NCBI GenBank assembly: GCA_012837385.1
Contig: DURH01000059.1
Coordinates: 18,851-82,850, forward strand
Direction: 5' to 3'
From: Bacillota bacterium
GTDB lineage: Bacteria; Bacillota; Limnochordia; Darwinibacteriales; Darwinibacteriaceae
Length of the DNA stretch: 64,000 nt
The notes below the pieces were generated by a model that saw only the letters and a list, made by a program, of their open reading frames with translations, searched no databases and was not told the origin of the DNA. The position numbers and the translations under genes are program-made. Shown here piece by piece: positions 19,227 through 39,138 of the stretch; the stretch's first letter is position 1, and each line of letters starts with the position of its first letter.

Positions 19227-20663
19227 TCAACCGGGACTTAGTGCGGAGATCAGCAATACGGCGGCGAACACCAAGGCCGCGCCCCAAAGCCACACAGAGT
19301 GGATGGGGAAAACGGCTCGCAGAAAGATGTAATCCTGGTTTGCATTCCAAAGCAGCAGGGCGAACAATGCGAGTGCGGCCAAGGCCCGCAGCCACCGAGA
19401 GCGAATCGATTTTGGTGTGAAAAGCTGTGTGAGCAGCATCACGCTTTGAGCCAGGAGCAGGGCGGCAATTCCAGCCAGACCCCAACTGCCCCACAGAATC
19501 CTTTCCATTCCTAGGGAGGGAAACCCCCGCCACCTAGCCCACTCTCTGAGCAGGTAGGCTATGAAGGGCCAGCTTCTTTGACTGTTGGTTAGGATGACGA
19601 ATCCATCACCTGTTTCTGGAAATGCCTGGAAATGTGTCATAATACCGGTGCCTTGCCCGCCGTGGGAAACGGACAGCATGCCGCTGGAGAGAGTTTCCAG
19701 GTAATGCCCGAAGCCGTAGGCGTCAAAGACGAGGCTGTAAATGCCGATCTTGTCAACTGTGGGCGTATACATAAGGTTGATACTATCCTTGCTTAACACT
19801 GGGTTTTCGCCCATACTCCCCAGCAAGAACCGTGCGATGTCCTCCGCCGTGGCAAAGAGGCCGCCGGAGGCCTTCTCTGGATAGACATAGGCGGGTACAG
19901 CACTGCCATCCAACCCGTAACCCGTGGGTGGAGCAGGCGTCAGAGCAGCGCTCCAGTTGAAGGAGGAGTTTTCCATGCCCAGGGGCCGCAGGATCTCCGT
20001 CTCCATATACTCCGCAAAGTCCCGCCCCGTCACCTCCTCGATCAGCAGTTCCAATAGATTGTACCCGGTGTTGGAATAGGAAAATGCTGTCCCTGGATGC
20101 CTAGCTAAGACAACTTCCTGCGTCAGTTTTTCCTGGAGAGAGGGCATTTCTTCTGTAGGTGAGTAAATGGTAAACACATCTCCCAGCGGCAAGCCAGCCG
20201 TATGGCTCAGCAGGCGGCGGACAGTGATCTCTTCTACGGGGAAATCCGAGGGGGGAAGACTGAAGTTTTTGAGATATGCCCCCGCCGGGGCATCGAGGTC
20301 TATTAGTCCTTGGTCATAGAGGCTGAGCACACCCCAGGCGGTGACCGACTTCGAAATGGACTGCACCCGCATGGGCGTTTCCACCATAAGCAGTCTGCCG
20401 CTTTCCAGATCGGCGTAACCAAAAGCCTCCGCCCACACGATGCGTCCATCATAGACCAGGGCCAAGCTGACCCCTGGAATCTGGTGTTTCTTCATTAAAA
20501 ACTGCAGGCGTTCCTCGAGATAGGGCACGAAGCCATCTACGCTATCCCCGCGGATCCTTCCCATCCACTGGACGCTGCCCGTGCTTACGGCAATGATCAG
20601 AAAAAAGAGCAGCGACAAGATGGCAAACCACAACCACCTTCTGCGGCCAGTAATGTCGCGCAT
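19227..20663 (-). CDS. Serine hydrolase (beta-lactamase class C family)
   Basis: MRVQSISKSVTAWGVLSLYDQGLIDLDAPAGAYL (SxxK); YSNTGYNLLELLIEEVTG; start chosen at ATG with RBS. Confidence 0.88.
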   Translation of the reverse strand: MRDITGRRRWLWFAILSLLFFLIIAVSTGSVQWMGRIRGDSVDGFVPYLEERLQFLMKKHQIPGVSLALVYDGRIVWAEAFGYADLESGRLLMVETPMRVQSISKSVTAWGVLSLYDQGLIDLDAPAGAYLKNFSLPPSDFPVEEITVRRLLSHTAGLPLGDVFTIYSPTEEMPSLQEKLTQEVVLARHPGTAFSYSNTGYNLLELLIEEVTGRDFAEYMETEILRPLGMENSSFNWSAALTPAPPTGYGLDGSAVPAYVYPEKASGGLFATAEDIARFLLGSMGENPVLSKDSINLMYTPTVDKIGIYSLVFDAYGFGHYLETLSSGMLSVSHGGQGTGIMTHFQAFPETGDGFVILTNSQRSWPFIAYLLREWARWRGFPSLGMERILWGSWGLAGIAALLLAQSVMLLTQLFTPKSIRSRWLRALAALALFALLLWNANQDYIFLRAVFPIHSVWLWGAALVFAAVLLISALSPG

Positions 20664-20842
20664 AGAGCAAGCCCTCCCCATAACTGCGCTTATTGAGCTG
20701 TTCGTGAGTTGCTGTAGAACAGGAGTATATTTCCACAAAATAGAAGAAGATCCCCCCTCCTGAATGGAGTTGAGATCTTCTAGCAAGCAATATCAATTGA
20801 AGGTTTTGCGTTTCCCTTCGTGAGGCAGCTGGCAAAAGGCCA

Positions 20843-21709
20843 TTAGTATAGTTTGTCAACGACAGATAGTGCGGTCTTCTTTTTCAGTTCTACCACCTTG
20901 TCGCCGAGGCGGTGGGCCACACCGGTATACAATAAATCGATCATATGCACCTGGGCCAGCTTGGAGCGGAGGGATCCCCCTTGGAGTGGATCTTCAGCGG
21001 AGCTGGTGAGGAGTACAATGTCTGACACTTCAGTGATGGGCGATTTCACCACATCGGTTACGGCGATGGTGAAGGCGCCGTTTTTCTTGGCCAGGCGCAT
21101 GCAGTCCACAGTGTCCTTGGTGCTGCCGGAGTGGGAGAAACCAACACACAGGTCTTCTTTGCTGATATGGGCCAGTGCCATAATTTGATGATGGGCATCG
21201 GCAAGGGCGTGGGCAATCATGCCGATTCTCAAAAACTTGCTTTGGGCATCAAGGGCTGTAAGCCCGGAGGTACCCACCCCCACAAAAAACAGGTTCTTCG
21301 CTTTAATGATCGCTTCCACTGCTTTTTCCAAAGCTGCAGGGCGCACCATTTGGGAGGTGTCGTGGAGTGCGCTGGCATTCATGGCGGTGATCTTTTCGAT
21401 CAAGGTTTCCATGGAATCGTCCGCGGTTAGGGTACCGCCTGTGCCGTTTTCCTGTTTGTTGGCCAATTCTAAGGCTAAGTTGAGTTTTAGGGCCTGGTAG
21501 CCGGAAAAACCCACCGCTTGGGAAAAACGGATAATGGTGGCTTCTCCCACTCCGCAGCGCTCACCCAATTGGGTTACGGAAAGATAAATGATCTCCTCGG
21601 GCTTTTCTAAGCAGTAATCAGCGACCTTCTTTTCTGTAGGGGTTAGGGAAGGGTATGCGCTGCGAATGCGGGCAAACCCTCCGGCTGGCAGGCTGATTTC
21701 TCTAGCCAT
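20843..21709 (-). CDS. MurR/RpiR family transcriptional regulator
   Basis: RIRSAYPSLTPTEKKVADYCLEKPEEIIYLSVTQLGERCGVGEATIIRFSQAVGFSGYQALKLNLALEL + SIS domain; RBS before MAREIS. Confidence 0.92.
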   Translation of the reverse strand: MAREISLPAGGFARIRSAYPSLTPTEKKVADYCLEKPEEIIYLSVTQLGERCGVGEATIIRFSQAVGFSGYQALKLNLALELANKQENGTGGTLTADDSMETLIEKITAMNASALHDTSQMVRPAALEKAVEAIIKAKNLFFVGVGTSGLTALDAQSKFLRIGMIAHALADAHHQIMALAHISKEDLCVGFSHSGSTKDTVDCMRLAKKNGAFTIAVTDVVKSPITEVSDIVLLTSSAEDPLQGGSLRSKLAQVHMIDLLYTGVAHRLGDKVVELKKKTALSVVDKLY

Positions 21710-22007
21710 TTGCCTCCTCCTCGCTTCCGTTGTCAACCTTACGTTGCTTTTATTACATATTCCACACGAATTGGAGAGTTCCTCCTTGTTATATGTCCAG
21801 CTCAGAGCCGAATGGAGAAAAACTTCATTTTGTCTTCGATCCGTGAAGGAATTTGCCACCGGCTGTAGAAGATCCGAAATACCACAAGAAAGAATACGTG
21901 ACTTTAACATGAGTTACTTAACCTTACGGAGGTGGTAGGTGGGGAAAGCAAACTTACCTGCGTTGGAAGAGTACCGAGGTTGCGTAGAAATCAAAGGAGG
22001 AATCATC

Positions 22008-23624
22008 TTGAAGCGACTAAGCATTCTCTGTCTCACATTAGTCATCGCGTTTGCGAGCACAGCATTAGCATTCGCGGCTCAGCCAAGCCCATTGGCAGAC
22101 CCCCGTGTTCGCCAGGCTATCGCCTATGCCATTGACATGGAAGCATTGATTGACAGCTTGATGGAAGGCCGGGCCAGCGTGGCCAACAGCCTGACGCCTG
22201 ATGGCGAGTGGAAAGTTGACGGTTTGAATCCATATGAATACAATCCGGAAAAAGCCAAGCAGCTTCTTAAGGAAGCCGGTTGGGATCCCAACACTGTATT
22301 AGACGTAGTTTACTACTATGGTGACCAGGAAACTGTTGACCTGATGGCTGCAATCCAGGTTTACCTGGACCAAGTAGGCATCAAAATGAACGCCCGCAAG
22401 CTCGAAGGTGACCTGGCTGCCCAGCTGTGGATGCCTCCAGCAGATCCTGTAAACGGACCCTCCGCTGTGGACTGGGATCTGGCCTACGGTGCCGTTGCTG
22501 CCCTGGCTATGCACGAGTACTATAACCGCTTTATGGGAGGAGCAGCCAGCAACTCTCATACACCCACCGATCCGGTACTCGATGAGTTAATTAAAGCCAC
22601 CAATGTTGCCGATATAGAAGCACAAAAACAAGCGTTTTTCGAATTACAGAAATACGAGAACGAGACTCTGTTTAACATCCCCCTCTACCATCAACAGCAG
22701 TTTGTAGTAGAGAGCAACAGATTAGACCGCAAGGGTGCCCCCATTGGTAACCAGCAGTTCTTCTCCGACTGGAGAATTATTGATTGGGATGTGCAGCCAG
22801 ATGCCAAGGGCAACTACACCCTGTATTCCTCTGGTGGTCCCATTGAGTTCTTTGAAACCGTATTTACCAACCCAGCGCTGTACATGACCCAGAAGTTCCT
22901 CTTCGACCGCCTGGTGGTCGCAGATGAGAACCTCACCCCTTACAAGGGACAGCTCGCTTCTGAGTACTCGGTGAGCGAAGATGGACTGACCATTGAGTTT
23001 GTACTCCGTGATGGCATCACCTGGCACGATGGTACCCCCATCACCGCTGAAGACGTGAAGTTCACTGTTGAGTACTCCGCTCGGGTACCTCAGCTTAACG
23101 CCGTGGCAGCTGCTACCTACAGCTCCCTGGAAGGATACGATGCCTTCATGAACGGCGAAGCCGATGGCATCAGCGGCATCGTAATTGATGGCAACAAGAT
23201 TACCTTTAACTTTGCCACCGTTGATCCCAACGCTCTGCTCACCTTCTCGCAGTGGCCGCCGCTGCCCAAGCATCTCCTGAAGGACACCGATCCAGTGCAG
23301 GCTCAGCGTGCTGCCTACTGGCAGGCACCAGTTGGCTCCGGCCCCTTCAAGATTGAAGAGGTACAGATGAACAGCTACTCCACTTATGTACGCTGGGAAG
23401 GCTACTGGGATGAAGGCACAGGCAATATTGAGAGAGTTCAGCTCTATCCAAGCGGCGAAAGCGATCCCAGCTTCGTAATCAACGCCCAGTCTGGCTTGAT
23501 CGACTTCGGATTTACCAAGAACGTTGCCGAATCCATCGCCGTTGAGAAAATGGATCATATGACAGTGCACCCAATCAACATTAGGTACACTCGTCTGTTC
23601 TACCCCAATAAGTTCCCAAGATAA
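22008..23624 (+). CDS. ABC transporter substrate-binding protein, SBP family 5, apparently circularly permuted (SatA-like context)
   Basis: TTG start with AAAGGAGG RBS; signal peptide then DPRVRQAIAYAIDMEALI (normally second half), followed by NYTLYSSGGPIEFFETVF...LTPYKGQLASEYSVSEDGLTIEFVLRDGITWHDGTPITAEDVKF (normally N-terminal). Confidence 0.88.
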   Translation: MKRLSILCLTLVIAFASTALAFAAQPSPLADPRVRQAIAYAIDMEALIDSLMEGRASVANSLTPDGEWKVDGLNPYEYNPEKAKQLLKEAGWDPNTVLDVVYYYGDQETVDLMAAIQVYLDQVGIKMNARKLEGDLAAQLWMPPADPVNGPSAVDWDLAYGAVAALAMHEYYNRFMGGAASNSHTPTDPVLDELIKATNVADIEAQKQAFFELQKYENETLFNIPLYHQQQFVVESNRLDRKGAPIGNQQFFSDWRIIDWDVQPDAKGNYTLYSSGGPIEFFETVFTNPALYMTQKFLFDRLVVADENLTPYKGQLASEYSVSEDGLTIEFVLRDGITWHDGTPITAEDVKFTVEYSARVPQLNAVAAATYSSLEGYDAFMNGEADGISGIVIDGNKITFNFATVDPNALLTFSQWPPLPKHLLKDTDPVQAQRAAYWQAPVGSGPFKIEEVQMNSYSTYVRWEGYWDEGTGNIERVQLYPSGESDPSFVINAQSGLIDFGFTKNVAESIAVEKMDHMTVHPINIRYTRLFYPNKFPR

Positions 23625-23652
23625 GCACTAGAGCTATTGGGTTGAGATTTAA

Positions 23653-23684
23653 GGGCCGCCGAAACCCCAGGGTTTCGGCAGCCC
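23653..23684 (+). other. Intergenic stem-loop between SBP and permease genes
   Basis: GCCGAAACCC-CA-GGGTTTCGGC with outer GGGC/GCCC pairing. Confidence 0.75.
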
Positions 23685-23734
23685 TGCCTCTGATTCTGCT
23701 CCCAGTCTAGAGGCAAGGTCTGGAGGGTGTAAAT

Positions 23735-24694
23735 ATGCTTACCTACACACTGCGCAAACTTTTGATGCTGATCCCCATGTTATTGGTGATTACCTTTTTG
23801 ATCTATGTGGGATTAGAGCTCACCCCAGGTGATGCGGTCTCCTTCATGGTGGGGCCGGATGCCCTGGCTAATATGTCCCCAGAGAGGCTCAATGAACTCA
23901 GAGATGCCCTGGGGCTCAACGATCCCTTCATAGTTCGCTACTTTAGATGGCTGGGCAGGGCTCTGCAGGGCGATTTCGGTTACAGCCTCACCAGCGGGGT
24001 GCCCATTAAGACCATCGTCTTCAGCCGTTTACCCGCGACTTTGGAACTCTCCATCGCGGCGCTGATTGTTTCCACCATCTTAGGAAGCATTCTGGGCATG
24101 ATCAGTGCCCTCAGAAAGGGTTCCGTTTTAGACGTGAGCCTGACTGTAGCTGGCATGGTTGGTGTTTCCATTCCCCAATTCTTCTTTGCACTGGTATCCA
24201 TCTTAATCTTTTCCTTCAACCTGGGTTGGCTGCCCTCAGGAGGGCGTACCCTGCCTGGTTACACCACCTTCCTTGATCGCCTGCCCCACTTGGTGATGCC
24301 TGCCCTAGTATTGGGCGCGACCATGACCGCTGGGGTAATGCGCTATTCACGTGCCAGCATGCTGGATGCCTTAAGTAAAGACTATATCAAAACAGCCCGC
24401 AGCAAGGGTTTGCCAGAGTGGCGGGTTAACTTGATGCACGGGTTTAGAGTGGCCCTCACACCGGTAGTTGTACTGGTGGGCTTTAGGCTGCCAATGCTCA
24501 TCGGCGGCTCAGTAGTGGTTGAACAGATTTTCCAGTGGCCTGGCATCGGCAAGGAGTTTGTGGCCGCGGTTAGGGGCCAGAACCTTCCCCTAGTGATGAT
24601 GATCGCATTGTTCACTGTGGCCGCTGTGTTGATTGCCAGTTTCCTGGTGGATTTGGTAACTGCACTCCTAGACCCCAGAATTCGTTTAGAGTAG
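23735..24694 (+). CDS. Dpp/Opp-type ABC transporter permease (DppB-like)
   Basis: MLTYTLRKLLMLIPMLLVITFLIYVGLELTPGDAV...YIKTARSKGLPEWRVNLMHGFRVALTPVV. Confidence 0.93.
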   Translation: MLTYTLRKLLMLIPMLLVITFLIYVGLELTPGDAVSFMVGPDALANMSPERLNELRDALGLNDPFIVRYFRWLGRALQGDFGYSLTSGVPIKTIVFSRLPATLELSIAALIVSTILGSILGMISALRKGSVLDVSLTVAGMVGVSIPQFFFALVSILIFSFNLGWLPSGGRTLPGYTTFLDRLPHLVMPALVLGATMTAGVMRYSRASMLDALSKDYIKTARSKGLPEWRVNLMHGFRVALTPVVVLVGFRLPMLIGGSVVVEQIFQWPGIGKEFVAAVRGQNLPLVMMIALFTVAAVLIASFLVDLVTALLDPRIRLE

Positions 24695-24703
24695 GGTGAT
24701 ATC

Positions 24704-25624
24704 GTGAGCCGGACAGCTAGTCGTTTAGACCGCAAAATGGACCTCCTGAAGATGCAGGAAAAGGAGGGCCTGCTCAAGTCTAAAGAAGGAAGCAGGGCGG
24801 TGGGCAAGTTTATCCAGAACAAGCTGGCCCTCATCGGCCTAGTGGTTTTTGCTGTAATCCTGCTTTCCTCTATCTTCGCCCCCCTGCTGACCAAGTATGA
24901 TCCTGCTATGATTGACCTGAGGGCTAGGCTGAGCCCGCCGTCTTGGGAACATCTCTTTGGTACGGACAAGCTGGGGCGAGATGTTTTTGCCCGCGTTTTG
25001 TACGGGGGCCGCATTTCCATCTTGGTTGGTTTCGGCGGCGCCTTAGGCGCAGCCCTAGTTGGCGTGAGCTTAGGCACTTACGCAGGTTACAAAGGAGGTT
25101 GGCTGGATAAGATTCTCCTCCGCGTCTCAGAAATATTTATGGCCTTTCCTCAAATCATCTTAGTCCTCTTACTAGTTTCTCTTCTGGGACAGAGCCTCTG
25201 GAATCTGCTAGTGATCTTCACCATTACGGGCTGGGGCTCAGTGTACCGCATGGCCCGTTCCCAGATGCTCTCCATCCGTGAGGAAGAATACGTGCAGGCC
25301 CTTAAGGCCTTTGGGTTGAGCGATGCCATCATTGCCTACAAGCACATGCTGCCCAACGCACTGGGTCCCATAATGGTTAACCTCACTTTGAGTACCGCCA
25401 TGTTTATCTTAGAGGAAACCGCCCTCAGTTTCCTGGGCTTAGGTGTACCTCTGCACATCCCCACCTGGGGGAATATTCTCAACGCTGCCCAGGACCTCAC
25501 CATTCTGCAGGAAGCGTGGTGGATTTGGGTCCCGGTTGGATTGGTTATCTCCGCCTTCGTCCTCAGCATCAACTTCGTCGGTGACGGGCTGCGGGACTCT
25601 GCCGATCCTACGCAGCAGGGTTAG
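24704..25624 (+). CDS. Dpp/Opp-type ABC transporter permease (DppC-like)
   Basis: RLSPPSWEHLFGTDKLGRDVFARVLYGGRISILVGFGGAL; GTG start. Confidence 0.93.
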   Translation: MSRTASRLDRKMDLLKMQEKEGLLKSKEGSRAVGKFIQNKLALIGLVVFAVILLSSIFAPLLTKYDPAMIDLRARLSPPSWEHLFGTDKLGRDVFARVLYGGRISILVGFGGALGAALVGVSLGTYAGYKGGWLDKILLRVSEIFMAFPQIILVLLLVSLLGQSLWNLLVIFTITGWGSVYRMARSQMLSIREEEYVQALKAFGLSDAIIAYKHMLPNALGPIMVNLTLSTAMFILEETALSFLGLGVPLHIPTWGNILNAAQDLTILQEAWWIWVPVGLVISAFVLSINFVGDGLRDSADPTQQG

Positions 25625-25636
25625 GAAGGTGGTTTC

Positions 25637-26635
25637 GTGGACACGATTCTTACTGTGGATAACCTCCACATCAATTTCTATACAAACAACCGCTGCAACG
25701 AAGCAGTGAGGGGGGTCTCCTTCCAGCTCAAGAAGGGGCGCACCCTCTGCCTGGTGGGCGAAAGCGGCTGTGGGAAGAGTGTGACAGCATCCTCCATCAT
25801 GAGGCTGTTGCCGCCCCTGAGCCGTATTGAGGAAGGTGAGATTATCTACCATACCGACCAGGGTGATCTCCGCCTTCACGAGCTGGATCCCAATGGACCT
25901 GAGATCCGCTCCATCAGGGGCGCGGAAATCGCCATGATCTTCCAGGATCCCATGACCGCACTTAACCCCGTGTACACCGTGGGGTTCCAGATTCGGGAAG
26001 CCTTTATGTACCACACCAAGATGGCCGCGGCAGCCATGAAGGAGAAGGCAGTGGAGCTCTTACGCAGCATGCGCATCCCCGCACCGGAGCAGCGGGTGAA
26101 CGAGTATATTCACCAGTATTCCGGCGGTATGCGCCAAAGGGCCATGATCGCCATGGCCATGGCCTGCAATCCCCAGATTCTCATTGCCGATGAGCCCACC
26201 ACCGCTTTGGACGTGACTGTGCAGGCCCAGATTTTTGACCTCATGAACGACCTGCAGCGGGAACACAATGCCGCCATTCTGCTGATCACCCATGATATGG
26301 GTGTCGTGGCAGAGCTGGCCCATGATGTGGTGGTAATGTACATGGGCGATGCTGTAGAGAACGGGCCGGTGGAGGAAATCCTCACCAAACCAGCCCATCC
26401 CTATACCTCGGCGCTGCTGAGGTCCATTCCAGTTTTGGGGCAGTCCAAATCCCAGAAGTTGGAGCCCATCCGTGGTTCCACTCCTGATCCCTATAATCGC
26501 CCCAAGGGCTGCCAATTCCGCCCCCGCTGCGATTTTGCCACCGAAAAGTGCCTGCAGGATCCTGAGACTTTTGACGTCAGTGCCGACCATACGGTGAAGT
26601 GCTGGCATTGGGAGAAGGTGTTAGCGAATGCATAG
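25637..26635 (+). CDS. Dpp/Opp-type ABC transporter ATP-binding protein (DppD-like)
   Basis: Walker [55 protein letters not shown]-terminal Cys-rich oligopeptide-type tail. Confidence 0.95.
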   Translation: MDTILTVDNLHINFYTNNRCNEAVRGVSFQLKKGRTLCLVGESGCGKSVTASSIMRLLPPLSRIEEGEIIYHTDQGDLRLHELDPNGPEIRSIRGAEIAMIFQDPMTALNPVYTVGFQIREAFMYHTKMAAAAMKEKAVELLRSMRIPAPEQRVNEYIHQYSGGMRQRAMIAMAMACNPQILIADEPTTALDVTVQAQIFDLMNDLQREHNAAILLITHDMGVVAELAHDVVVMYMGDAVENGPVEEILTKPAHPYTSALLRSIPVLGQSKSQKLEPIRGSTPDPYNRPKGCQFRPRCDFATEKCLQDPETFDVSADHTVKCWHWEKVLANA

Positions 26636-27656
26636 GGAAAAGGAAGTTCTTTTGAAAATCAGAAACGCCCAAACCTATTTCCCCGTCCAGAAAGGCCTGC
26701 TCAAACGCACTGTGGGCCATGTTCGGGCGGTGGACAATGTCAGCCTCGATGTGTACCGGGGAGAGACCCTGGGATTGGTGGGGGAAAGCGGCTGCGGCAA
26801 GACCACTTTAGGCAAATCCATCCTGCAGCTGGTTCGTCCCACAGGCGGCGAGTTTATCTACAACTTCGATGGACAAGAAAAGGATCTGCGCAAGCTCTCT
26901 AATGAAGAGATGATGCAGGCCAGAAAGAGGCTGCAGATTGTCTTCCAGGATCCCCATTCTTCCCTGAATCCCGCCTTTACCATTTTCGGATCGCTCCAGG
27001 ATCCCCTGAAGAAGTTTGGGATCAAATCCAAGGAAGAGCGCAAGCAGATTATCGGCGACCTGCTAGAAGCAGTCAACCTGCGTAGGGAGTACATGCACCG
27101 CTATCCCCACGAGTTCAGCGGAGGGCAGCGGCAGCGCATTGGCATTGCCAGGGCTTTGTCTTTGGGGCCAGAGCTGATTATCTGCGATGAGGCAGTGAGT
27201 GCCTTGGACGTTTCCATCCAGGCCCAGGTGCTCAACCTCCTTCTGGAGCTGAAGGAGAAGCATAAGCTCACCTATATCTTTATCAGCCACGACCTCAGCG
27301 TTGTGGAATATATGAGCGACCGCATCGCCGTAATGTACCTGGGTAAGATTGTGGAGTTGGCCCAGGCGGAAGACCTGTTTGCCAACGCTATGCATCCTTA
27401 CTCCCAGGCTCTGCTCTCCGCCATTCCCGTGGCGGAAGTGGGGCGCAAGAGAAACAGGATTGTTTTGGAGGGGAATGTCCCCAGCCCGGTGGATCCGCCT
27501 CCAGGCTGTGCTTTCCATCCACGGTGCCCCTATGCCATGGAGATGTGCAAAACCACCGTTCCTGAACTGCGCAAGCACATCATCGACGGTAGGGAGCACC
27601 ATGTTGCCTGTCATCTGACAGATGCCAGGGCAGTCACGACACAGAAAACGTCTTAA
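26628..27656 (+). CDS. Dpp/Opp-type ABC transporter ATP-binding protein (DppF-like)
   Basis: [57 protein letters not shown]. Confidence 0.95.
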
Positions 27657-27674: not shown

Positions 27675-28598
27675 ATGACATTAACTGAGCTGAGAGGGGT
27701 CATTCCACCGATTGTCACGCCTTTTGATGAGGCCGGTGAGCTAGATACAGCTTCCCTGAGAAGAGCGACCAACTATTTGATTGACAACGGCGTGCACGGC
27801 ATTTTCTGCCTGGGATCCACTGGCGAATGTGCAGCGCTCACCGATGTGGAAAGAATCACTATCGTGCAAACAGTTGTGGAGGAAACCGCGGGCCGAGTGC
27901 CGGTTTTGGCGGGCATTACCGAAACCAGCACCAGAAGGACCATTCGCTTGGGCCAAATGGTAATTGAAGCCGGCGCCCAGGCAGTAGTTGTGGCTCCGCC
28001 CTTTTACCACATGAACAGCCAGGATGAGCTGCTCACCTACTACCGTGACCTAGCAGCCGCTCTGCCTGTACCCATCATCGCTTACAATGTACCAGTTCTG
28101 GTAAAAACTCCACTGGAGCCAGCCACTGTGGAAATCTTGGCCAAGGAAGGAACTATCCTGGCTTTGAAAGACAGCGGCGGCAACTCCAACATCCTCCGGG
28201 ACTACATTATGAGGACCAAGGGTATTCCCGGCTTTACAGTGTTAACCGGTATGGAGTTTCTGGTGGATACAGCCATCCAGATGGGTGCCCACGGCTCGGT
28301 GCCTGGGATCGGCAATGTGGCTCCCGCGGAATATGTGGAGCTCTACAACCTGTCCTGCGCCGGCGAATACGCCAAGGCCCGGGAACTGCAGGAACGCCTG
28401 ATCAAGCTCTTCGAGATCTGCTACCAGGGATCGCCTAAGCTCTCTGGCTCAGCATCGGCTTTAAGCGGCTTTAAATCAGCCATGCGCTGGCTGGGCGTGA
28501 TCGAAACCGCCAAAATGGCTCCACCCCTGGGGTCCCTCAATGCTGAGGAAGAAGAAAAAGTACGCCAGGTCTTAGTGGACCTAGGCTTTCTGAAGTAA
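27675..28598 (+). CDS. DHDPS/N-acetylneuraminate lyase family aldolase
   Basis: RGVIPPIVTPFDEAGELDTASLRRATNYLIDNGVHGIFCLGSTGECAALT; ALKDSGGN catalytic Lys region. Confidence 0.9.
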   Translation: MTLTELRGVIPPIVTPFDEAGELDTASLRRATNYLIDNGVHGIFCLGSTGECAALTDVERITIVQTVVEETAGRVPVLAGITETSTRRTIRLGQMVIEAGAQAVVVAPPFYHMNSQDELLTYYRDLAAALPVPIIAYNVPVLVKTPLEPATVEILAKEGTILALKDSGGNSNILRDYIMRTKGIPGFTVLTGMEFLVDTAIQMGAHGSVPGIGNVAPAEYVELYNLSCAGEYAKARELQERLIKLFEICYQGSPKLSGSASALSGFKSAMRWLGVIETAKMAPPLGSLNAEEEEKVRQVLVDLGFLK

Positions 28599-28623
28599 TC
28601 CGCCAACGGGAAGGAAGAGTAGA

Positions 28624-29286
28624 TTGGGTGTTTTGAGTGCTGTTCATAAAGGATTAATTGTCTCTTGTCAGGCCTTAGAAGATGAACCTCTTCACGGCCC
28701 CATGCTCATGGCCGCCATGGCTAGGGCAGTTCAGTTCGGCGGAGCGGTAGGTATTCGCACCAACGGCAAGTACGAAGTTGAGGTGATCAAAAAGATCACC
28801 AATCTGCCAGTGATCGGCATCAAAAAGGTGACCAATGAGGCAGGGAAGATGGCCATCACTCCCACCTTCAGCCTAGCCCAGGAACTGGTGGAGGCTGGTG
28901 CAGATATGATCGCGGTGGATGTGCGCCGGGAAAGGCCCTTTGGTGAGCCCCTGGAGGAGCTGATCCCCAGGATTCGGGAAGAGCTTGGGGTTCCCGTGAT
29001 GGCTGACTGCGCGGCTCTGGAAGATGCCCAGGCCGCGGTGGAAATTGGGGTTGATGTGATTGCTTCCACCTTTGGTTTCCGCCTAAACGACTTGGGTACA
29101 GAACCTGACTTTGAGCTCTTGGAAGGGATGCTGAAACTGGGCGTTCCAGTGATCGCAGAAGGCGGTTTCTGGTATCCTGAACAGGTAGTGCAGGCCTTTG
29201 AGATGGGCGTGTGGTCTGTGGTGGTGGGCAGCGCCATTACCAGGCCTTTGGAAATAACGAAGCGGTTTGTGCGTGCCTTGGGCTAG
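28624..29286 (+). CDS. nanE: N-acylglucosamine/N-acetylmannosamine-6-phosphate 2-epimerase (NanE-like)
   Basis: GLIVSCQALEDEPLHGPMLMAAMARAVQFGGAVGIRTNG...IGIKKVTNEAGKMAITPTFSLAQELVEAGADMIAVDVRRERPF; TTG start. Confidence 0.9.
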   Translation: MGVLSAVHKGLIVSCQALEDEPLHGPMLMAAMARAVQFGGAVGIRTNGKYEVEVIKKITNLPVIGIKKVTNEAGKMAITPTFSLAQELVEAGADMIAVDVRRERPFGEPLEELIPRIREELGVPVMADCAALEDAQAAVEIGVDVIASTFGFRLNDLGTEPDFELLEGMLKLGVPVIAEGGFWYPEQVVQAFEMGVWSVVVGSAITRPLEITKRFVRALG

Positions 29287-29635: not shown

Positions 29636-31039
29636 ATGACAGAACGTCTCAAGCTGAGCGATGTGGAAGTTGTTGAAATACCGTGGGTGGAACCGGTGTA
29701 TACCCGGGACTTCCCGGAAATCCCAGAGGAAACCTATGCTCAGCGCGTCGCCAGCCTCAGGGCCCGCATGGAAGAGCACGGCCTGTCCCATGTGGTGGTT
29801 TACGGCGACCGGGAGCATTTCGCCAATACAAGGTGGCTCACGGGCTATGACCCGCGCTTTGAGGAAAGCCTGACCATCGTGGGCCTGTCCGGCAAGCCCC
29901 GCCTGCTGGTGGGTCTGGAAGGTTTGTATTACGCAGCCATCGCCAAGGGCGTAGATGCTGAGCTGTATGATGAGTTCAGCCTGCAGGGACAGCCCGGTAA
30001 GGGCCGGTCGCTGGCTGAGATTTTCGCGGACTGCGGCCTGGCTGCAGGGAGCAGGGTGGGCTTGGTAGGTACCAAGTACCGCCAGACAAATGAGTACGGC
30101 CAGACCAAGCTGGCCAGCGATGTCCCCTACTACTTGGTGGAGGTCTTGGCCAAGACTGTGGGCTTCGACAACATAAGCGATGTCACCCGGTGGTTCACCG
30201 ATACCACAACTGGCCTGAGGATTCCTCTCACAGTGGATGAGATCGCTCGCAACGAAATGATCAACCTCATGGTATATGCGGGCATGCGCAACGCCATGGC
30301 TGCCCTCAAACCGGGAGTGACTGAAGCTGAGATCTCCGGCAAACTGAATTATGACGGTAGTATACCCCTATCCTGCCACATTGTGGTCAGCTTCGGGGAC
30401 AACGTGGGCTTGGCTCTGAACAGCCCCACCAATAATGAGCTGCGCCTGGGCGATCCCCTCAGTGTAGCCCTAGGTGTATGGGGTGCCAATATGGCCCGTA
30501 CAGGCATCGCGGTGCACAGCGAGGATGAGTTCTCCCCTGAGATCGCCGACGCCATGGAAAAGGTATTCGTGCCCTATTTCGATATGCTGCTGCGCTGGTA
30601 TGGAGCGCTGCATGTGGGTGTTAAGTGCGGAGACGTCTACGAGGTAGTCAGGGACTACATGGAGGATCCCTTCTTCCAGATTGCCCTGAACGCAGGACAC
30701 CTCATTCACTTTGAGGAGTGGATCAACGCTCCCTTTGTGCCCGGCTCCGAGGATGTGCTCCAGTCCGGCACCATGATTCAGTGCGATATCATCGTCCCCG
30801 CGACTGCTCCCTATCCAGGTGTACACACTGAAGACAGCCTGGTTGTGGCCGACGCCGCGCTCCGGGCCGAATTAGCGGAGAAATATCCTGAGGTTTGGGC
30901 CCGCATCCAAGGGCGGCGCACCATGATGGAAGGCCTTGGTTACACGCTCCATGAAGATGTCCTGCCCCTCTGCGATTTGCAGGGACAGGTACAACCCTTT
31001 ATGCTCAACCCCACGCAAGTGCTGCGGTTGAAGAAATAG
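29636..31039 (+). CDS. M24 (pita-bread, Xaa-Pro peptidase-like) family protein with degenerate metal-ligand positions
   Basis: N-terminal creatinase-like domain + EMINLMVYAGMRNAMAALKPGVTEAEI...GHLIHFEEW...HTEDSLVV. Confidence 0.78.
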   Translation: MTERLKLSDVEVVEIPWVEPVYTRDFPEIPEETYAQRVASLRARMEEHGLSHVVVYGDREHFANTRWLTGYDPRFEESLTIVGLSGKPRLLVGLEGLYYAAIAKGVDAELYDEFSLQGQPGKGRSLAEIFADCGLAAGSRVGLVGTKYRQTNEYGQTKLASDVPYYLVEVLAKTVGFDNISDVTRWFTDTTTGLRIPLTVDEIARNEMINLMVYAGMRNAMAALKPGVTEAEISGKLNYDGSIPLSCHIVVSFGDNVGLALNSPTNNELRLGDPLSVALGVWGANMARTGIAVHSEDEFSPEIADAMEKVFVPYFDMLLRWYGALHVGVKCGDVYEVVRDYMEDPFFQIALNAGHLIHFEEWINAPFVPGSEDVLQSGTMIQCDIIVPATAPYPGVHTEDSLVVADAALRAELAEKYPEVWARIQGRRTMMEGLGYTLHEDVLPLCDLQGQVQPFMLNPTQVLRLKK

Positions 31040-31171: not shown

Positions 31172-32224
31172 ATGAAACTATTTAAGCGTCGTCTACCAAT
31201 CGTATTGCTGCTTACCTTTGTTGTGGTGCTTGGTGCAACCGGATTGGCATCGGCCAAGAAACCTTTGATCGGTGTATCCATCCGCAGCCTGTCTGAAGAG
31301 CGTTGGGCCCGTGAAAAGGATATCATGGAACAGTTGGCTAAGGAAATGGGAGCAGACATCATGTTCACAGATGCCAACCATGATGAGAATCTCCAGAACT
31401 CCCAGATCGAGAACCTGATTTCCCGTGGAGTAGATGTACTGATTATTATCGCCCAGAACAGTGACGTAGCCGCCACTGGAGTGCAGATGGCTTCTGAAGA
31501 AGGAATCCCAGCCATTGCTTACGACGTAGCTGTCTTCCACCCCGACGCCATCTACCTCTCCTTTGACAGCATCAAAGTGGGCTACGAGATGGCCAAGGTT
31601 ATCGTGGACCTGGTTCCCAAAGGCAACTACATGTGGCTTGGTGGATCCCCAACCGATGACAACGCCTATCTCGTGCGCCAGGGACATTTCCAAGTTCTGC
31701 AGCCTCTCATTGACAAAGGCGACATCGTCCTCGTAGGTGAGCAGTGGTGCACCGCTTGGAGCCCCCAGGAAGCTATGATGCACACAGAGAACGCTCTCGT
31801 TGCCAACGATGACAAGATTGACGCAGTTGTAGCTTCCAACGACGGTACCGCTGGCGGCGCAGTTCAAGCCCTTATGGAGCGCGGGCTGGCTGGCACAGTA
31901 CCCACCTGCGGACAAGACGTTGACCTTGCCGCTGCTCAGCGCATTGCCGAAGGTACCCAGGCGGTATCCATCTTCAAGGACGTTAGGGTATTGGCTCGCA
32001 CTGCCATTGAAGCCGCTATGGAGCTGGCTGAAGGCAAGAAGCCATCCCACATCAACGGCACGTATCGCAACGAGGAGCGGGGCATTGAGCAGGAAGCCAT
32101 CCTTCTCGACGTAGTGCCCATCACCCAGGATAACCTGTATGAAGTGATTATCCTTGGCGGGTTCCACGCCCTTGAGGATGTCTATCGCAACGTTCCCAGG
32201 TCCGAATGGCCTGACCAAAAGTAG
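31172..32224 (+). CDS. xylF: D-xylose-type ABC transporter substrate-binding protein
   Basis: Signal peptide, KKPLIGVSIRSLSEERWAREKDIMEQLAKEMGADIMFTDANHDENLQNSQIENLISRGVDVLIIIAQN. Confidence 0.92.
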   Translation: MKLFKRRLPIVLLLTFVVVLGATGLASAKKPLIGVSIRSLSEERWAREKDIMEQLAKEMGADIMFTDANHDENLQNSQIENLISRGVDVLIIIAQNSDVAATGVQMASEEGIPAIAYDVAVFHPDAIYLSFDSIKVGYEMAKVIVDLVPKGNYMWLGGSPTDDNAYLVRQGHFQVLQPLIDKGDIVLVGEQWCTAWSPQEAMMHTENALVANDDKIDAVVASNDGTAGGAVQALMERGLAGTVPTCGQDVDLAAAQRIAEGTQAVSIFKDVRVLARTAIEAAMELAEGKKPSHINGTYRNEERGIEQEAILLDVVPITQDNLYEVIILGGFHALEDVYRNVPRSEWPDQK

Positions 32225-32271
32225 AGTTAACCGTAACTAAGGGAAATTACTAAGGAAAGACGGGTGGACTT

Positions 32272-33798
32272 ATGCCAGAACAAAAGAAAGTTCTTCTGAG
32301 GATATCGAACGTAAGCAAATCATTCCCGGGCACCAAAGCCCTGGACAATGTGAGCTTAGATGTCTATGAGGGGGAAATTCACGCCATCTGCGGCGAAAAT
32401 GGGGCTGGTAAGTCCACCCTCATGAAAATCTTGAGCGGCGTCTACCCCGGGGGGAGCTATGAGGGTGAGTTTTTCCTCCAGGGCACCAAATGCCAGTTTG
32501 CAGGGGTCAAGGACTCAGAGCAATTCGGCATACGCATCATCTACCAGGAACTGACCTTGGTGCCCCAGATGACCGTGGCGGAGAACATCCTGCTGGGAGC
32601 TGAGCCCAACAAATACGGGATAATCAACCAGAATCAATTATACAGCCAAGCAGAACAGCTCTTGAAGGAATACGACCTCAATGTGCCATGCAGTGCTAAA
32701 GTCAGCTCTTTGGGCATAGGCCAGCAGCAGATGGTGGAAATCGCCAAAGCCCTCTCGGGGAGGGCGCGGCTCTTGATTTTAGATGAGCCCACTTCTGCCC
32801 TGACTATTGATGAGACCGAAACGCTCCTCCGGATCATTAGGGAGCTCAAGGGAAGGGGCGTCACCTGCATCTATATATCTCACAAACTAGAAGAGGTTTT
32901 TGAAATAGCAGACCGGATCTCGGTACTGCGCGATGGCAAGCTGATCGGCACAGCGGAAACCTCTCAACTGGATCACAACAAGGTGGTCTCCATGATGGTG
33001 GGACGGGAGATGGAAAGCCAGTATCCTCCGCGCCAGAGGCAGGTGGGCGACGTGATCCTCTCTGTGAAGAACTGGACAGTTGTCAAGGACGGCGGGGCTT
33101 CCCGCCCGGTTGTGCAGGACGTTTCCTTTGATCTGCGCAGGGGCGAAGTATTGGGTATCGCGGGCCTGATGGGCTCAGGCCGCACCGAACTGGTGCAGAG
33201 CATTTTCGGGGAGTACGGCAAGAGGGTTTCTGGCGAGCTGATCCTCAACGGTGAACCGGTGACGATCAACTCTTCCCAGGATGCCATCAAACACGGGCTG
33301 GCTCTGCTGGCTGAAGACCGCAAGCAGCTGAGCCTAATCCTCAAGCACCCGATTCTAACCAACGTTACCATATCTTCCCTGAGGGAGCTGCTGCGCGGGG
33401 GAGTGATTGACCAGAACAGAGAACTCTCCGCGGTCCATGACTACCGGGATCGTCTGGCCATCAAGGCTCCCTCGGTGCACACGGTGGTGAATGAACTGAG
33501 CGGCGGCAACCAGCAGAAGGTGGCCATCGCCAAGTGGCTCATGACGGACCCGCAGGTGCTGATCATGGATGAGCCCACCCGCGGCATCGATGTGGGCACC
33601 AAGTATGAAGTGTACAAGTTAATGAACGACTTAACCAGTCGGGGCGTTTCCATAATTATGGTTTCTTCTGAGCTCCCCGAAGTACTGGGGATGAGTGACC
33701 GGATCTTGGTCATGCGCGAAGGTACTATGGCAGGCATTGTGGACAATGACAATGTAAGCATGGAAGAGATCATGCTGCTGGCAACAGGAGCAGCTTAA
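32272..33798 (+). CDS. xylG: Xylose/monosaccharide ABC transporter ATP-binding protein (two NBDs)
   Basis: [61 protein letters not shown]; second NBD ELSGGNQQKVAIAKWLMTDPQVLIMDEPTRGIDVGTKYEVYKL. Confidence 0.94.
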   Translation: MPEQKKVLLRISNVSKSFPGTKALDNVSLDVYEGEIHAICGENGAGKSTLMKILSGVYPGGSYEGEFFLQGTKCQFAGVKDSEQFGIRIIYQELTLVPQMTVAENILLGAEPNKYGIINQNQLYSQAEQLLKEYDLNVPCSAKVSSLGIGQQQMVEIAKALSGRARLLILDEPTSALTIDETETLLRIIRELKGRGVTCIYISHKLEEVFEIADRISVLRDGKLIGTAETSQLDHNKVVSMMVGREMESQYPPRQRQVGDVILSVKNWTVVKDGGASRPVVQDVSFDLRRGEVLGIAGLMGSGRTELVQSIFGEYGKRVSGELILNGEPVTINSSQDAIKHGLALLAEDRKQLSLILKHPILTNVTISSLRELLRGGVIDQNRELSAVHDYRDRLAIKAPSVHTVVNELSGGNQQKVAIAKWLMTDPQVLIMDEPTRGIDVGTKYEVYKLMNDLTSRGVSIIMVSSELPEVLGMSDRILVMREGTMAGIVDNDNVSMEEIMLLATGAA

Positions 33799-33875
33799 AA
33801 CCCAAATCATTTTGAAAAGAAGTGATGCATGTGAATACGGGAGATGTAAAACTCGGCACAAAGGAGCGCTCTAAG

Positions 33876-35054
33876 ATGAAGGGCCTCCTGGCAGTAGATA
33901 TGCGTTCTTACACCATCGTTTTGGCCCTGGTGGTCTTGTGGATCGCCCTCAGCTTGCTGAGCGACGGCGCTTTCTTTACCCCTCGCAATCTATCTAACCT
34001 TTTTAGGCAAGGATCTGTAGTAGCATTCATCGCCGTGGGTATGGTGTTGGTGATTGCGGCAGGCCAAATTGACCTCTCAGCAGGATCCCTGGCCGGTCTG
34101 GCGGGAGCCATAGCCGCGCTCATGCAGGTGCGCTGGCTGCCTGCCCTGGCCGCAAGTACTGGATGGACTGCCCTGGCCTCCGGTTGGCCCGCGGCCATCT
34201 TGAGCATCGCCGCCGCAGTGGCCTGCGGAGTGGCGCTAGGCGCGGTGCAGGGCGTGTGGGTCGCTTACGGTAAAGTCCCGGCGTTCATCGTTACCCTGGG
34301 CGGTTCCTTAGTGTTTCGCGGCTGGCTGCTGGGCATTACCAGGGGAGTGAACATCGCCCCCATGGATCCCAAGTTCCAGCTTTTGGGCCAAGCGTACCTG
34401 TCCACTGGGTTGGGGACAACCTTGGGCATGATCGCAGTGGCAGCTGTTATAGCCTACCGCATCTACTCGCGGATCAACAGGCAGCGCTACGGGCTTACCG
34501 TTAGACCCGTGTGGCTGGAGGCGTTGGCTACAGTTGGAGTCTGCGCAATGATCATTTTCTTCGTAACACAAATGAACAGTTACCGCGGCATTCCTGTCCC
34601 GGTAATCCTCCTCTTGGCGCTGGCCGGCTTGTTTACCTTTATCACTACCCGCACCCAGTTCGGCCGCCATGTCTATGCCATTGGAGGCAACATTGAGGCC
34701 GCCCGCCTGTCGGGGATCAATATTCGGCAGAGTATCTTCAAGATCTTCATGGTGGTGGGGGCGATGGCCGGCGTGAGCGGAGCCGTACTCAGCGCTAGGC
34801 TGAATGTGGCCACTGCCAACGCGGGATCCCAGTTCGAACTGAATGCCATTGCCGCCTGCGTCATTGGAGGCACCAGCCTTGCCGGGGGCGAAGGAAGCAT
34901 TCCAATGGCTCTCATTGGTGCGCTGATTATGGCCAGTGTGGATAACGGCATGAGTTTGCTGAACGTAGAATCATTCTGGCAGCAGATCATCAAGGGGCTG
35001 ATCTTGGCCACCGCGGTGCTCATCGATGTCAACTCCCGTAAAGGGCGGGATTAG
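33876..35054 (+). CDS. xylH: Xylose ABC transporter permease
   Basis: FTPRNLSNLFRQGSVVAFIAVGMVLVIAAGQIDLSAGSLAGLAGAIAALMQVRW; start at ATG with AAAGGAG RBS. Confidence 0.92.
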   Translation: MKGLLAVDMRSYTIVLALVVLWIALSLLSDGAFFTPRNLSNLFRQGSVVAFIAVGMVLVIAAGQIDLSAGSLAGLAGAIAALMQVRWLPALAASTGWTALASGWPAAILSIAAAVACGVALGAVQGVWVAYGKVPAFIVTLGGSLVFRGWLLGITRGVNIAPMDPKFQLLGQAYLSTGLGTTLGMIAVAAVIAYRIYSRINRQRYGLTVRPVWLEALATVGVCAMIIFFVTQMNSYRGIPVPVILLLALAGLFTFITTRTQFGRHVYAIGGNIEAARLSGINIRQSIFKIFMVVGAMAGVSGAVLSARLNVATANAGSQFELNAIAACVIGGTSLAGGEGSIPMALIGALIMASVDNGMSLLNVESFWQQIIKGLILATAVLIDVNSRKGRD

Positions 35055-35160
35055 TCGGTGCTTAGTTTCACAACCGTTTTAGCCCAGTTCTGGCAGGAGT
35101 TTCTGGGCACAATGTCAAAACCTAAATGTATATGGAATTTTGAATGGTGGAGGAAATCGT

Positions 35161-36237
35161 TTGGCTGGAAATCGATCAAGGGGCGCTAGAAAACGACATG
35201 TTACCATCGAGGATCTAGCGCGTCATCTAAATATCTCCAAAGCCACTGTCTCCCTGGCACTGAACAACAGCTCCCTAGTCGCGGATGAAACCCGGCGGCG
35301 GGTGACTGCAGCCGCGGAGCAGTTTGGCTATCGACCCAACTACTTTGGGGCGCGCCTATCCAGGGGCAAGTCCGATATGATCGGCCTGTACATCTTGGGT
35401 GGCACAGAGGCGCAGTGCAACTGGATGCTGCCCTCCAGCTGGATGTTTTATCATCCCATCCTCAAGGCGGTGAGTGAGGAACTCTCCAAGCACGGTTACC
35501 GCTTTAACCTGGAAGTGGTGAGTGTAGAACAGGCGATCAAAGAGGGAGTTATCTCTTCGGTGATCCAGGAAGGCTCCTTGGATGGAATGCTCCTGGTGGT
35601 GCAGGATGATATAGACTACAGCTTCCTGGACATAGTAGAGGAGAGGCAGTTTCCCTTTGTGGCGCTCAATGCCAAGGTCTCCGAAACCATCAGTTCCGTA
35701 AAGATTGACAATGCCCTGGGCGCCAGTACGGCGGTCGGGCATCTGCTTGAGCGGGGCCACCGCACAATCGCGCTTTTAAGCGGGCCTGAAAAGGACAGCA
35801 ACGCCAGTGACAGGTTGAAGGGTTTTCGGGACGCGATCTTAGAGGCCGGGCTGGAATGGAACCCCAGCCTGGTTTACTATGGCGATTGGAAGCGGGAATC
35901 GGGCTGGCGGGGAGCGGAAGCGTTCTTGCAGCTGGAAGACCGGCCGACAGCCATTTTCTGTGCTAACGACCATATGGCTATCGGAGCCATGCAGATGCTG
36001 GAGCAGGCGGGATTGAAGGTGCCCCAGGACGTTTCGTTGATTGGCTTTGACGATACAGAACTGTGTCAGGTGGTGGTGCCCAGGTTAACTACAGTAAGAC
36101 AGCCGGTGGGCTTAATGGGTGAACTAGGGGCTAAAGCGGTGCTGCAGCAAATCGATGCAGAGTCCTTCGAGGTAACCCATATCAACCTGGAGCCCGAGCT
36201 GATCGTTCGGGAATCCACGGCATATGTCAATCGTTGA
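35161..36237 (+). CDS. LacI family transcriptional regulator
   Basis: [62 protein letters not shown] start after GGAGG. Confidence 0.93.
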
Positions 36238-36269
36238 TCAATAGGTTTCTAAACGAAGGAGGAAGTAAT

Positions 36270-37589
36270 GTGAACAAGTACTTTCCAGAAGTAAGTAAAG
36301 TGCTCTATGAAGGTAAGGACACTAAGAATCCCTTAGCCTTCCGTTATTACGATCCCCAGCGTAAAGTAGGGGATAAGACCATGGAGGAACATCTTCGCTT
36401 TTCCATGGCTTACTGGCATACCCTCTGCGCTTCAGGCGTAGACATGTTTGGCTCCGGCACGGCAGTTCGGCCTTGGGATAAACTCACCAAGCCCATGGAC
36501 ATCGCCAAAGCCAGGGCAGAAGCAGCGTTTGAGTTTATGGTCAAGATGCAGATTCCTTTCTTCTGCTTCCACGACGTAGACATCGCTCCAGAGGGCGAGA
36601 ACCTCACCGAGACTTTCAAGAACCTCGATGAGATCGCAGCCCTGCTCAAAGACTTAATGAAACAGACCGGCATTAAGCTGCTCTGGGGTACCACTAATCT
36701 CTTTACCCATCCCCGCTTTTTGCACGGTGCCTCCACTTCGCCTAACGCTGATGTCTTTGCCTATTCCGCGGCACGGGTCAAGAAGACCATGGAAATCACC
36801 AAGGACCTGGGCGGCGAGAACTATGTGTTCTGGGGCGGCCGGGAAGGCTATGAAACCCTGCTGAACACAGATATGAAACTGGAAATGGATAACCTAGCCC
36901 GCTTCCTGCATATGGCAGTGGATTATGCTAAGGAAATCGGCTTTACCGGTCAGTTCCTCATCGAACCCAAGCCGAAAGAGCCAACCAAGCACCAGTATGA
37001 CTTCGACGTAGCTTCTGTGATCGGCTTCTTGAAGACCTATGGTTTGGATAAGGACTTCAAGGTCAATATCGAAGCTAACCATGCTACGCTGGCTGGACAC
37101 ACCTTCCAGCATGAGCTGCGCCTGGCCAGAATCAACGGCCTGCTGGGCAGCGTAGATGCCAACCAAGGTGACGAACTCTTGGGTTGGGATACGGACCAGT
37201 TCCCCACCAACCTCTATGTCACCACTCTCGCTATGTATGAGATTCTGCTCAATGGCGGCTTAGCACCTGGCGGCCTCAACTTTGACGCCAAGGTACGCAG
37301 GGGCTCCTATGAACCCATCGACCTCTTCTACGGCCATCTGGCAGGCATGGACGCCTTTGCCCACGGCTTGCTGGCAGCCTACAAGCTCCTGGAATCCAGG
37401 GAACTGGAAGACTTTGTGGCTGAGCGCTACAGCAGCTACACCAAGGGAATTGGTGAGAAGATCGTCAAGGGCGAAGTGGGCTTCAAAGAGCTGGCTGAAT
37501 ACGCCATGGATCATCAAGAGATTAAGCATACATCTGGACGCCAAGAGCTCCTGGAGACCATCGTCAACAAGTACATCTTCGAAGCTTAA
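36270..37589 (+). CDS. xylA: Xylose isomerase
   Basis: [96 protein letters not shown] start. Confidence 0.97.
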
Positions 37590-37638
37590 GCTGGCATTCG
37601 GTACTTAAAACGGCAGGAGTGAAAGGCGGGTAGATGTG

Positions 37639-39138
37639 ATGAGTTATCTTATAGGCTTAGACGTTGGCACATCGGCTGTAAAGGCGCTTTTGCTCACCAG
37701 CGAAGGCAGCGTGGTGGGAAGCCATACCGCCGAGTATCCTTTCCGCTCGCCGCAGCCTGGCTGGACCGAGCAGGATCCAGAGGATATGTGGAAAGCGTCT
37801 GCAGAGGCCGTCCGCGGAGTGCTATCCAAGTTCTCCGTTAATCCTGAGGCAGTAGCTGGTGTGGGACTATCGGGCCAGATGCACAGCTCTGTGTTCCTGG
37901 ATGAGCGCAGTGAAGTGATCAGGCCTGCAATCCTTTGGAATGACACGAGGACCACGCCCCAATGCCGCTTGATCGACAAGACAGTGGATCCCGATGTGCT
38001 GCGGGAAGAGGCTTGCAACCCTGCTCTTGAGGGGTTTACCCTTCCCAAAGTGCTGTGGCTGAAGGAAAATGAACCTGAGAATTTCGCCAAGCTGCGCTGC
38101 TTGGTGCTGCCCAAGGATTATGTGCGCTTCCGCTTAACGGGCAATCTGGCCATGGAAGTGTCCGATGCCGCGGGCATGCTCATGATGAACCTGCGCAAAC
38201 AGGCGTGGTCCAAACCCATTTTGGACGCCTTTGATCTCCCCGCAGACATTCTGCCGCCCATTATCGGGTCGTCGGAAGTGGCGGGAACCATCACTGCGGA
38301 AGCCGCTGAAGCCACCGGCTTGAAGCCAGGCACCCCAGTTGTGGGCGGCGGAGCAGATAACGCCTGTGGAGCTGTGGGCTCCGGCGTAGTGGTTGCCGGC
38401 AGGGGCATGGTGAGCCTGGGCACCAGCGGAGTGATCCTCGCTCACTTGGCAGAACCCAGACTGATCACCGAGGGCACCGTGCATATGTTCAACAGCTGCG
38501 TGCCAGGGGAATTCTACATGATGGGGGTAACCCTGTCTGCAGGCCTTTCCCTGAGCTGGCTGCGGAGCCGCATCGGCATGGAAGAAGTTCCCTATGATGT
38601 GATGACCAAAGCCGCCGAAACTGTACCTCCCGGCAGCCGCGGCCTGGTGTTCCTCCCCTATCTAACTGGGGAGCGCACACCTCATGGTGACGGCAATGCC
38701 AGGGGCAGCTTTGTGGGGCTCAGCGCTATCCATGATCAGGGTGATCTGGTCCGTGCGGTATTGGAAGGAGTGGCCTATGCCTTCTGCGATTCCGTACGAC
38801 TGCTGCGGTCCGCAGGCTGGAACGGCACATCCTTACGGGCACTGGGCGGTGGCGCCAAGTCTCCGCTGTGGAAGAAGATCATTGCCAGCGCCACTGGTTT
38901 GATGCTGGAAGAGATCAACATTGATGAAGGCCCAGGCTTGGGTGCAGCTATCCTGGCCGGGGTAGGAACAGGCATCTACGCCGATGTGCGGGAAGCCTCT
39001 GACTCCATCATTAAGGTGAAGGGTGCAGTGGAACCTGACCCAGAGTGGAACAAGGTTTACAGCGAAATGTACCAGGTGTACAGAACTCTGTACCCGGCCT
39101 TGAAACCTTCCTTTGATCGCTTAGTAAGTATGGCGTAG
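37639..39138 (+). CDS. xylB: Xylulokinase
   Basis: YLIGLDVGTSAVKALLLTSEGSVVGSHTAEYPFRSPQPGWTEQDPEDMWKA; GLSGQMHSSVFLDE; FGGY kinase. Confidence 0.96.
   Translation: MSYLIGLDVGTSAVKALLLTSEGSVVGSHTAEYPFRSPQPGWTEQDPEDMWKASAEAVRGVLSKFSVNPEAVAGVGLSGQMHSSVFLDERSEVIRPAILWNDTRTTPQCRLIDKTVDPDVLREEACNPALEGFTLPKVLWLKENEPENFAKLRCLVLPKDYVRFRLTGNLAMEVSDAAGMLMMNLRKQAWSKPILDAFDLPADILPPIIGSSEVAGTITAEAAEATGLKPGTPVVGGGADNACGAVGSGVVVAGRGMVSLGTSGVILAHLAEPRLITEGTVHMFNSCVPGEFYMMGVTLSAGLSLSWLRSRIGMEEVPYDVMTKAAETVPPGSRGLVFLPYLTGERTPHGDGNARGSFVGLSAIHDQGDLVRAVLEGVAYAFCDSVRLLRSAGWNGTSLRALGGGAKSPLWKKIIASATGLMLEEINIDEGPGLGAAILAGVGTGIYADVREASDSIIKVKGAVEPDPEWNKVYSEMYQVYRTLYPALKPSFDRLVSMA

Follow-up and report, generated by a model that had tools for sequence, protein, structure and literature searches.

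A probable natural circular permutant of a family-5 ABC substrate-binding protein, with conserved reversal of its two halves

Introduction

Family-5 binding proteins of ABC transporters are Venus-flytraps in which two strands cross the hinge between the lobes. In the cluster C protein EppA, domain III (lobe 2) starts directly past the first strand of this two-strand hinge (PMC7312458). In AliD both native termini are located in domain I of lobe 1, with domain I composed of residues 29–63, 191–296 and 583–617 and domain III of residues 297–582; AliC forms a domain-swapped dimer, the swap running through the loop (residues 290–294) that connects lobe 1 to lobe 2 (PMC11192437).

A permuted ABC binding protein is already known. 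TpMglB-2 (Tp0684) from Treponema pallidum, the one described case that we found, is a cluster B sugar-binding protein that has been circularly permuted in nature, a state conserved in several species (PMC4990184). Its folding was shown by crystallography, and glucose binding and the change of shape that accompanies it were shown by biophysical methods, so that a permuted binding protein can evidently function (PMC4990184). For family 5/cluster C no report of a permuted binding protein was found in the open-access literature, which is limited evidence of absence; within that scope the search is consistent with the remark of an earlier note on this DNA that the order described below is not standard for the family.

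The gene analysed here lies at positions 22008–23624 on the forward strand of the window, that is, the whole stretch of 64,000 nucleotides under analysis. Its product shares with the canonical cluster C proteins (DppA, OppA, NikA, AppA, Lmo0135 (5isu) and HdSatA) the Pfam family, the motifs of both halves and an operon with two permeases and two ATPases. It differs from them in that the halves are reversed and the native ends fused, while the new ends would lie past hinge strand 1, with lobe 2 directly behind the signal peptide. TpMglB-2 is likewise a natural permutant of an ABC binding protein, but it is of Type I/cluster B (‘cluster Bc’), whereas the protein described here matches only SBP_bac_5 and thus falls outside cluster B. 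Moreover, the permutation of TpMglB-2 changes the order of strands within the N-lobe and creates a fourth crossing between the lobes, whereas the cut in the present protein would remove one of two crossings. The present case thus concerns another class of binding protein and a different kind of cut site.

Results

The open reading frame starts with TTG at 22008 and ends with a stop codon at 23622–23624; it encodes 538 residues and is open from end to end, as had been claimed. A strong Shine-Dalgarno sequence (AAAGGAGG, 21993–22000), read directly from the DNA, lies 5' of the start; the counterpart gene in Firmicutes bacterium UBA5388 (see below) has AAGGAGG 5' of an ATG start. The signal peptide was called by inspection as a hydrophobic N-terminal signal sequence of approximately residues 1–23 (22008–22076). 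It is conserved in the UBA5388 protein, has a cleavage site without a lipobox cysteine, and ends near residue 23 (22076) rather than at 22088, where the earlier note had placed its end. Residues 24–263 (22077–22796) form the C-terminal half of a family-5 binding protein, aligned with SBP_bac_5 profile positions 201–327 and with residues 343–567 of the closest ordinary homolog (L011, genome G041), and delimited by the rotation analysis. This half begins at the canonical DPRVRQAIAYAID element and finishes at the native C-terminus (WRIIDWDVQ); it would comprise lobe 2 (domain III), hinge strand 2 and the native C-terminal segment. The linker between the native C- and N-termini, PDAKGN (22797–22814), was located from the alignments and the optimal rotation point at residues 263–266, and reads PDANGK in UBA5388. 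Residues 270–538 (22815–23621) form the N-terminal half, aligned with profile positions 3–180 and with L011 residues 65–332; it extends from the native N-terminal segment (YTLYSSGGP) through the first hinge strand and probably corresponds to lobe 1 (domains I and II). Both family-5 halves are complete, so that neither was lost, in agreement with the earlier note. The new C-terminus, RYTRLFYPNKFPR (23583–23621), is equivalent to the canonical segment that immediately precedes PLADPRVRQA, i.e. the first hinge strand and the following loop, in an alignment of 43 sequences. Between the stop codon and the first permease gene the RNA would form a strong hairpin (23652–23685, fold z-score −4.4), which probably sets the ratio of binding-protein to permease expression.

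The only Pfam match of the protein is SBP_bac_5 (PF00496), with a score of 222 bits against a cut-off of 32.4. In a profile search across the assembly that contains the window, this match consists of two partial stretches that occur in reversed model order within the single open frame, profile positions 201–327 on the N-terminal side and 3–180 on the C-terminal side, as had been expected; the positions are collinear only once the protein is rotated. Comparison with NCBIfam and the PDB gave an equivalent split: residues 267–347 of DppA match residues 20–99 of the permuted protein, and chains such as 8upi match, with their residues 41–239, its residues 296–499. The ordinary order was present in all of the approximately 40 family-5 homologs examined that had matches in both halves. 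Linear domain models report permuted proteins of this type as two partial matches, and others may therefore have been overlooked.

For the rotation analysis the mature protein was rotated through each position and aligned to 12 canonical homologs. Rotation increased the score for each of the 12; against L011 it rose from 434 to 759, with the best rotation point at residues 263–266, the site at which the native ends are fused. At this junction the native C-terminus reads WRIIDWDVQP (KIEEWEIID in L011) and the native N-terminus NYTLYSSGGP (RNTLVIPGAP in L011). In the controls the gain was 0 for 11 ordinary homologs and at most 3 for 20 shuffles. The best PDB matches of the rotated protein became single continuous alignments (from 95 to 107 bits for 5isu), and the alignment with 8efz covered nearly the full length. 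The reversed order of the halves, which was the central claim of the earlier note, is thus borne out by the profile stretches and by the gain on rotation, and collinearity with canonical family-5 proteins was found neither in the order of the homologs nor in the rotation analysis.

A scan of approximately 85,000 species genomes yielded one relative, located on contig DHOO01000068.1 of UBA5388 (L043) and 72% identical to the permuted protein across its whole length. The L043 protein scores 204.9 bits against SBP_bac_5, above the gathering score. It has its own ATG start and its own signal peptide, an identical order of the halves and the linker PDANG (PDAKG in the host); its stop lies one residue past the common NKFPR end, and the gene also heads a permease-permease-ATPase-ATPase cassette. 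In the congener G005, residues 392–538 are present and end at a stop, with the equivalent permease gene directly behind; support from G005 thus covers the C-terminal end, roughly the last third of the gene. On G005 contig C54 the signal peptide runs in frame straight into residue 391 of the permuted protein. Contigs C54 and C61 overlap by exactly 127 bases (L040:1–130 and L039:11197–11323), as is typical of a branch in a de Bruijn graph, and the junction on C54 represents either an internal deletion allele, possibly non-functional, or an assembly branch. The search for homologs of the same order, which had been proposed as a check, thus gave a complete one in UBA5388 and one for the C-terminal end in G005, showing that the permutation is conserved across species, in the host (G000), UBA5388 and partly in G005.

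With a query spanning the junction, and query genomes aside, no further permutant was found among 37 genomes of the order, 73 of the class, 399 of the phylum and 399 related to UBA5388; in congeners other than G005 the permuted gene was absent. The matches in a tblastn search of plasmids were all below 60% identity, and those with an annotation were ordinary binding proteins, an assignment that reflects the annotation and leaves the order of the pieces aside. Viral contigs searched for canonical relatives yielded one locus and then none. Traces of a duplication, in the form of leftover halves beside the gene, were searched for in the flanks; no remnant was found up- or downstream. In the host genome there was no close canonical paralog able to replace the permuted protein. 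The permuted arrangement is very rare, and evidence for its functional success is confined to this small clade.

Trees were calculated from the N-terminal half, the C-terminal half and the full rotated alignment. In all three the two permutants group together, with the canonical L011 (37–39% identity, ordinary order) as sister and L012 as the next relative, each with 100% bootstrap support. The congruence of the half trees indicates that a single parent gene was permuted and that two binding proteins were not fused; both halves derive from one parent gene. Between host and UBA5388, pN was 0.19 and 0.145 in the two halves at a pS of approximately 0.91 (saturated), and both halves are under purifying selection. 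With an ordinary sister at 37–39% and a second permutant at 72% identity, the evolution of the event is open to study.

The position of the new ends was derived from the 43-sequence alignment in combination with the domain limits of AliD (PMC11192437) and the hinge of EppA (PMC7312458). In this alignment RYTRLFYPNKFPR, at the new C-terminus, falls on the conserved Y-[IML]-x-x-N strand, and AQPSPLADPRVRQAI, with which the mature protein begins, on the point where the following helix starts. The probable cut is therefore at the end of hinge strand 1 that faces lobe 2. The new termini would thus be placed at the boundary of hinge and lobe 2, and not inside a lobe, as had been supposed. A cut at hinge strand 1 would render lobe 2 contiguous and N-terminal and lobe 1 contiguous and C-terminal, with one covalent strand between them, so that one of the two covalent links between the lobes would be lost. 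The loop at the cut position is about 5 residues longer in L011 than in most relatives; judged from this one sister, the site may be tolerant of cutting. The swap loop of AliC, a protein that unlike the present one retains the canonical chain order, would be near the crossing that is cut here. An AlphaFold2 prediction on the two-sequence alignment was of low confidence, with a pLDDT of 33.6.

Discussion

The data are best explained by a natural and complete circular permutant of a family-5 (cluster C) ABC substrate-binding protein that is probably functional, a reading to which we assign a probability of roughly 0.87. The native ends, which in family 5 are both in lobe 1, are joined via a linker of approximately 6 residues, and new ends would be opened just past the first strand that crosses the hinge. 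The order in the gene would then be signal peptide, lobe 2, hinge strand 2 with the native C-terminal segment, linker, lobe 1 and finally hinge strand 1 as the new C-terminus. Such a protein could take on the bilobed form usual for the family, in which hinge strand 1, now C-terminal, would still pair; it would close on its ligand and pass it to the cognate permease despite a single inter-lobe link and an exported N-terminus on lobe 2. As for the origin, a tandem duplication followed by fusion is likely, in which the outer halves were lost and the signal peptide was retained.

The host genome is metagenome-derived and in 71 contigs, and the equivalent locus in G005 is broken at a contig overlap of 127 bp, so that an error of assembly has to be considered. 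Against this, UBA5388 is a separate assembly in which the 72% identical gene has all three junctions; both genomes have an open frame and a conserved linker (PDAxG), and G005 has the C-terminal junction in common with them. A misassembly shared by the UBA5388 gene and the G005 end is very unlikely; the local misassembly that the earlier note had allowed for is thus given next to no weight, since order, linker and stop position all recur in an independent metagenome-assembled genome, and the end recurs in G005. We therefore regard the swapped order as real and inherited. A fusion between two different family-5 genes would yield an identical layout if halves of neighbouring binding-protein genes had been joined, and the two halves do score differently against most homologs; the separate half trees, however, agree with 100% bootstrap each on L011 as sister and L012 as next relative, and a chimera of two binding proteins is ruled out by this congruence, which leaves a fusion with hardly any probability.

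A further alternative accepts the permutation and takes the protein to be non-functional or without a role in transport, a decaying relic carried along by the operon. Closure could be destabilised once one connection between the lobes is gone, G005 possibly has an internal deletion, and the distribution is very rare. We nevertheless consider decay improbable, because purifying selection on both halves is strong between the distant genomes of host and UBA5388 (pN/pS no higher than about 0.2 at a saturated pS), the permuted protein keeps its place and the identity level of its permeases and ATPases, and the host has no close canonical paralog as a replacement.

A functional circular permutant would probably be the first natural one of the family-5/cluster-C fold, opened exactly at the lobe-lobe hinge: a single-link Venus-flytrap with its N-terminus on the other lobe, in which the altered hinge and tethering may change the energetics of closure or the docking to the permease. 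A permutant cut at one crossing tests the need for both crossings and for an N-terminus on lobe 1 in export, closure and docking, and the natural linker and cut site could guide the engineering of permuted binding-protein sensors.

The binding-protein gene heads an otherwise normal operon, as had been noted, Pfam assigning two BPD_transp_1 permeases and two oligo_HPY ATPases. Permease 1 (Opp/Dpp B type, 23735–24694, BPD_transp_1) is 79% identical to its UBA5388 counterpart, permease 2 (Opp/Dpp C type, 24704–25624, BPD_transp_1 and OppC_N) 73%, ATPase 1 (OppD/DppD type, 25637–26635, ABC_tran and oligo_HPY) 71% and ATPase 2 (OppF/DppF type, 26628–27656, ABC_tran and oligo_HPY) 75%. These genes are followed, also on the forward strand, by an aldolase of the DHDPS/NanA superfamily (27675–28598; Pfam DHDPS, with NCBIfam scores that reach neither the dapA nor the nanA cut-off) and by NanE, a putative N-acetylmannosamine-6-phosphate 2-epimerase (28624–29286; NF002231, 234 bits against a cut-off of 189). 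A regulator of the RpiR/MurR type (HTH_6 and SIS) is divergently encoded at 20843–21910 on the reverse strand. The binding protein, permeases and ATPases are 71–79% identical between host and UBA5388, and the regulator, aldolase and NanE only 38, 29 and 41%; the aldolase and NanE genes beside the permuted transporter are not orthologous (9540–11327 in L043 and 27675–29286 in the window). The history of the transporter cassette thus differs from that of its neighbours, plausibly by horizontal transfer.

Since the cluster encodes NanE together with an aldolase of NanA/DapA type, the most likely cargo is sialic acid or an N-acyl amino sugar related to it, at odds that we put only somewhat above even. 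The family-5 binding protein SatA of the SatABCD system (Haemophilus ducreyi) is similarly linked to genes of sialic-acid catabolism such as NanE, but is itself in canonical order. SatA is not the closest solved structure: the family of 5z99, which together with 5yyb and 5za4 we take to represent SatA, gave an E-value of 1e-14 versus 8e-30 for 5isu. That a functional permutant imports something else, for instance an oligosaccharide or peptide, is a sizeable but lesser possibility. It is favoured by the scores of the host aldolase below the NanA and DapA cut-offs, by a host genome in which no BNR_2 sialidase was found, and by the nearest canonical relatives, which lie beside IclR regulators and, for L012, also beside a GH10 xylanase-like protein. 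On the other hand, NanE exceeds its curated cut-off in both genomes, and in UBA5388 it adjoins an aldolase that is nearest to N-acetylneuraminate lyase, yet under the NanA cut-off (250.8 versus 281); both clusters contain an RpiR regulator, and since the flanking genes are not orthologous the association appears twice.

Outside the operon, a serine hydrolase of the beta-lactamase fold (PF00144) with C-terminal hydrophobic segments is encoded at 19227–20786, between leuS and the RpiR gene, an interval in which no equivalent open reading frame was seen in G005. An open reading frame of the creatinase/M24 peptidase type (29636–31039; weak Pfam scores, no NCBIfam match) separates the nan-like cluster from a second sugar cluster directly downstream (31172–39138), which contains a Peripla_BP_4 binding protein, a sugar ATPase, a permease and a LacI-type regulator as well as open reading frames resembling xylose isomerase and xylulokinase.
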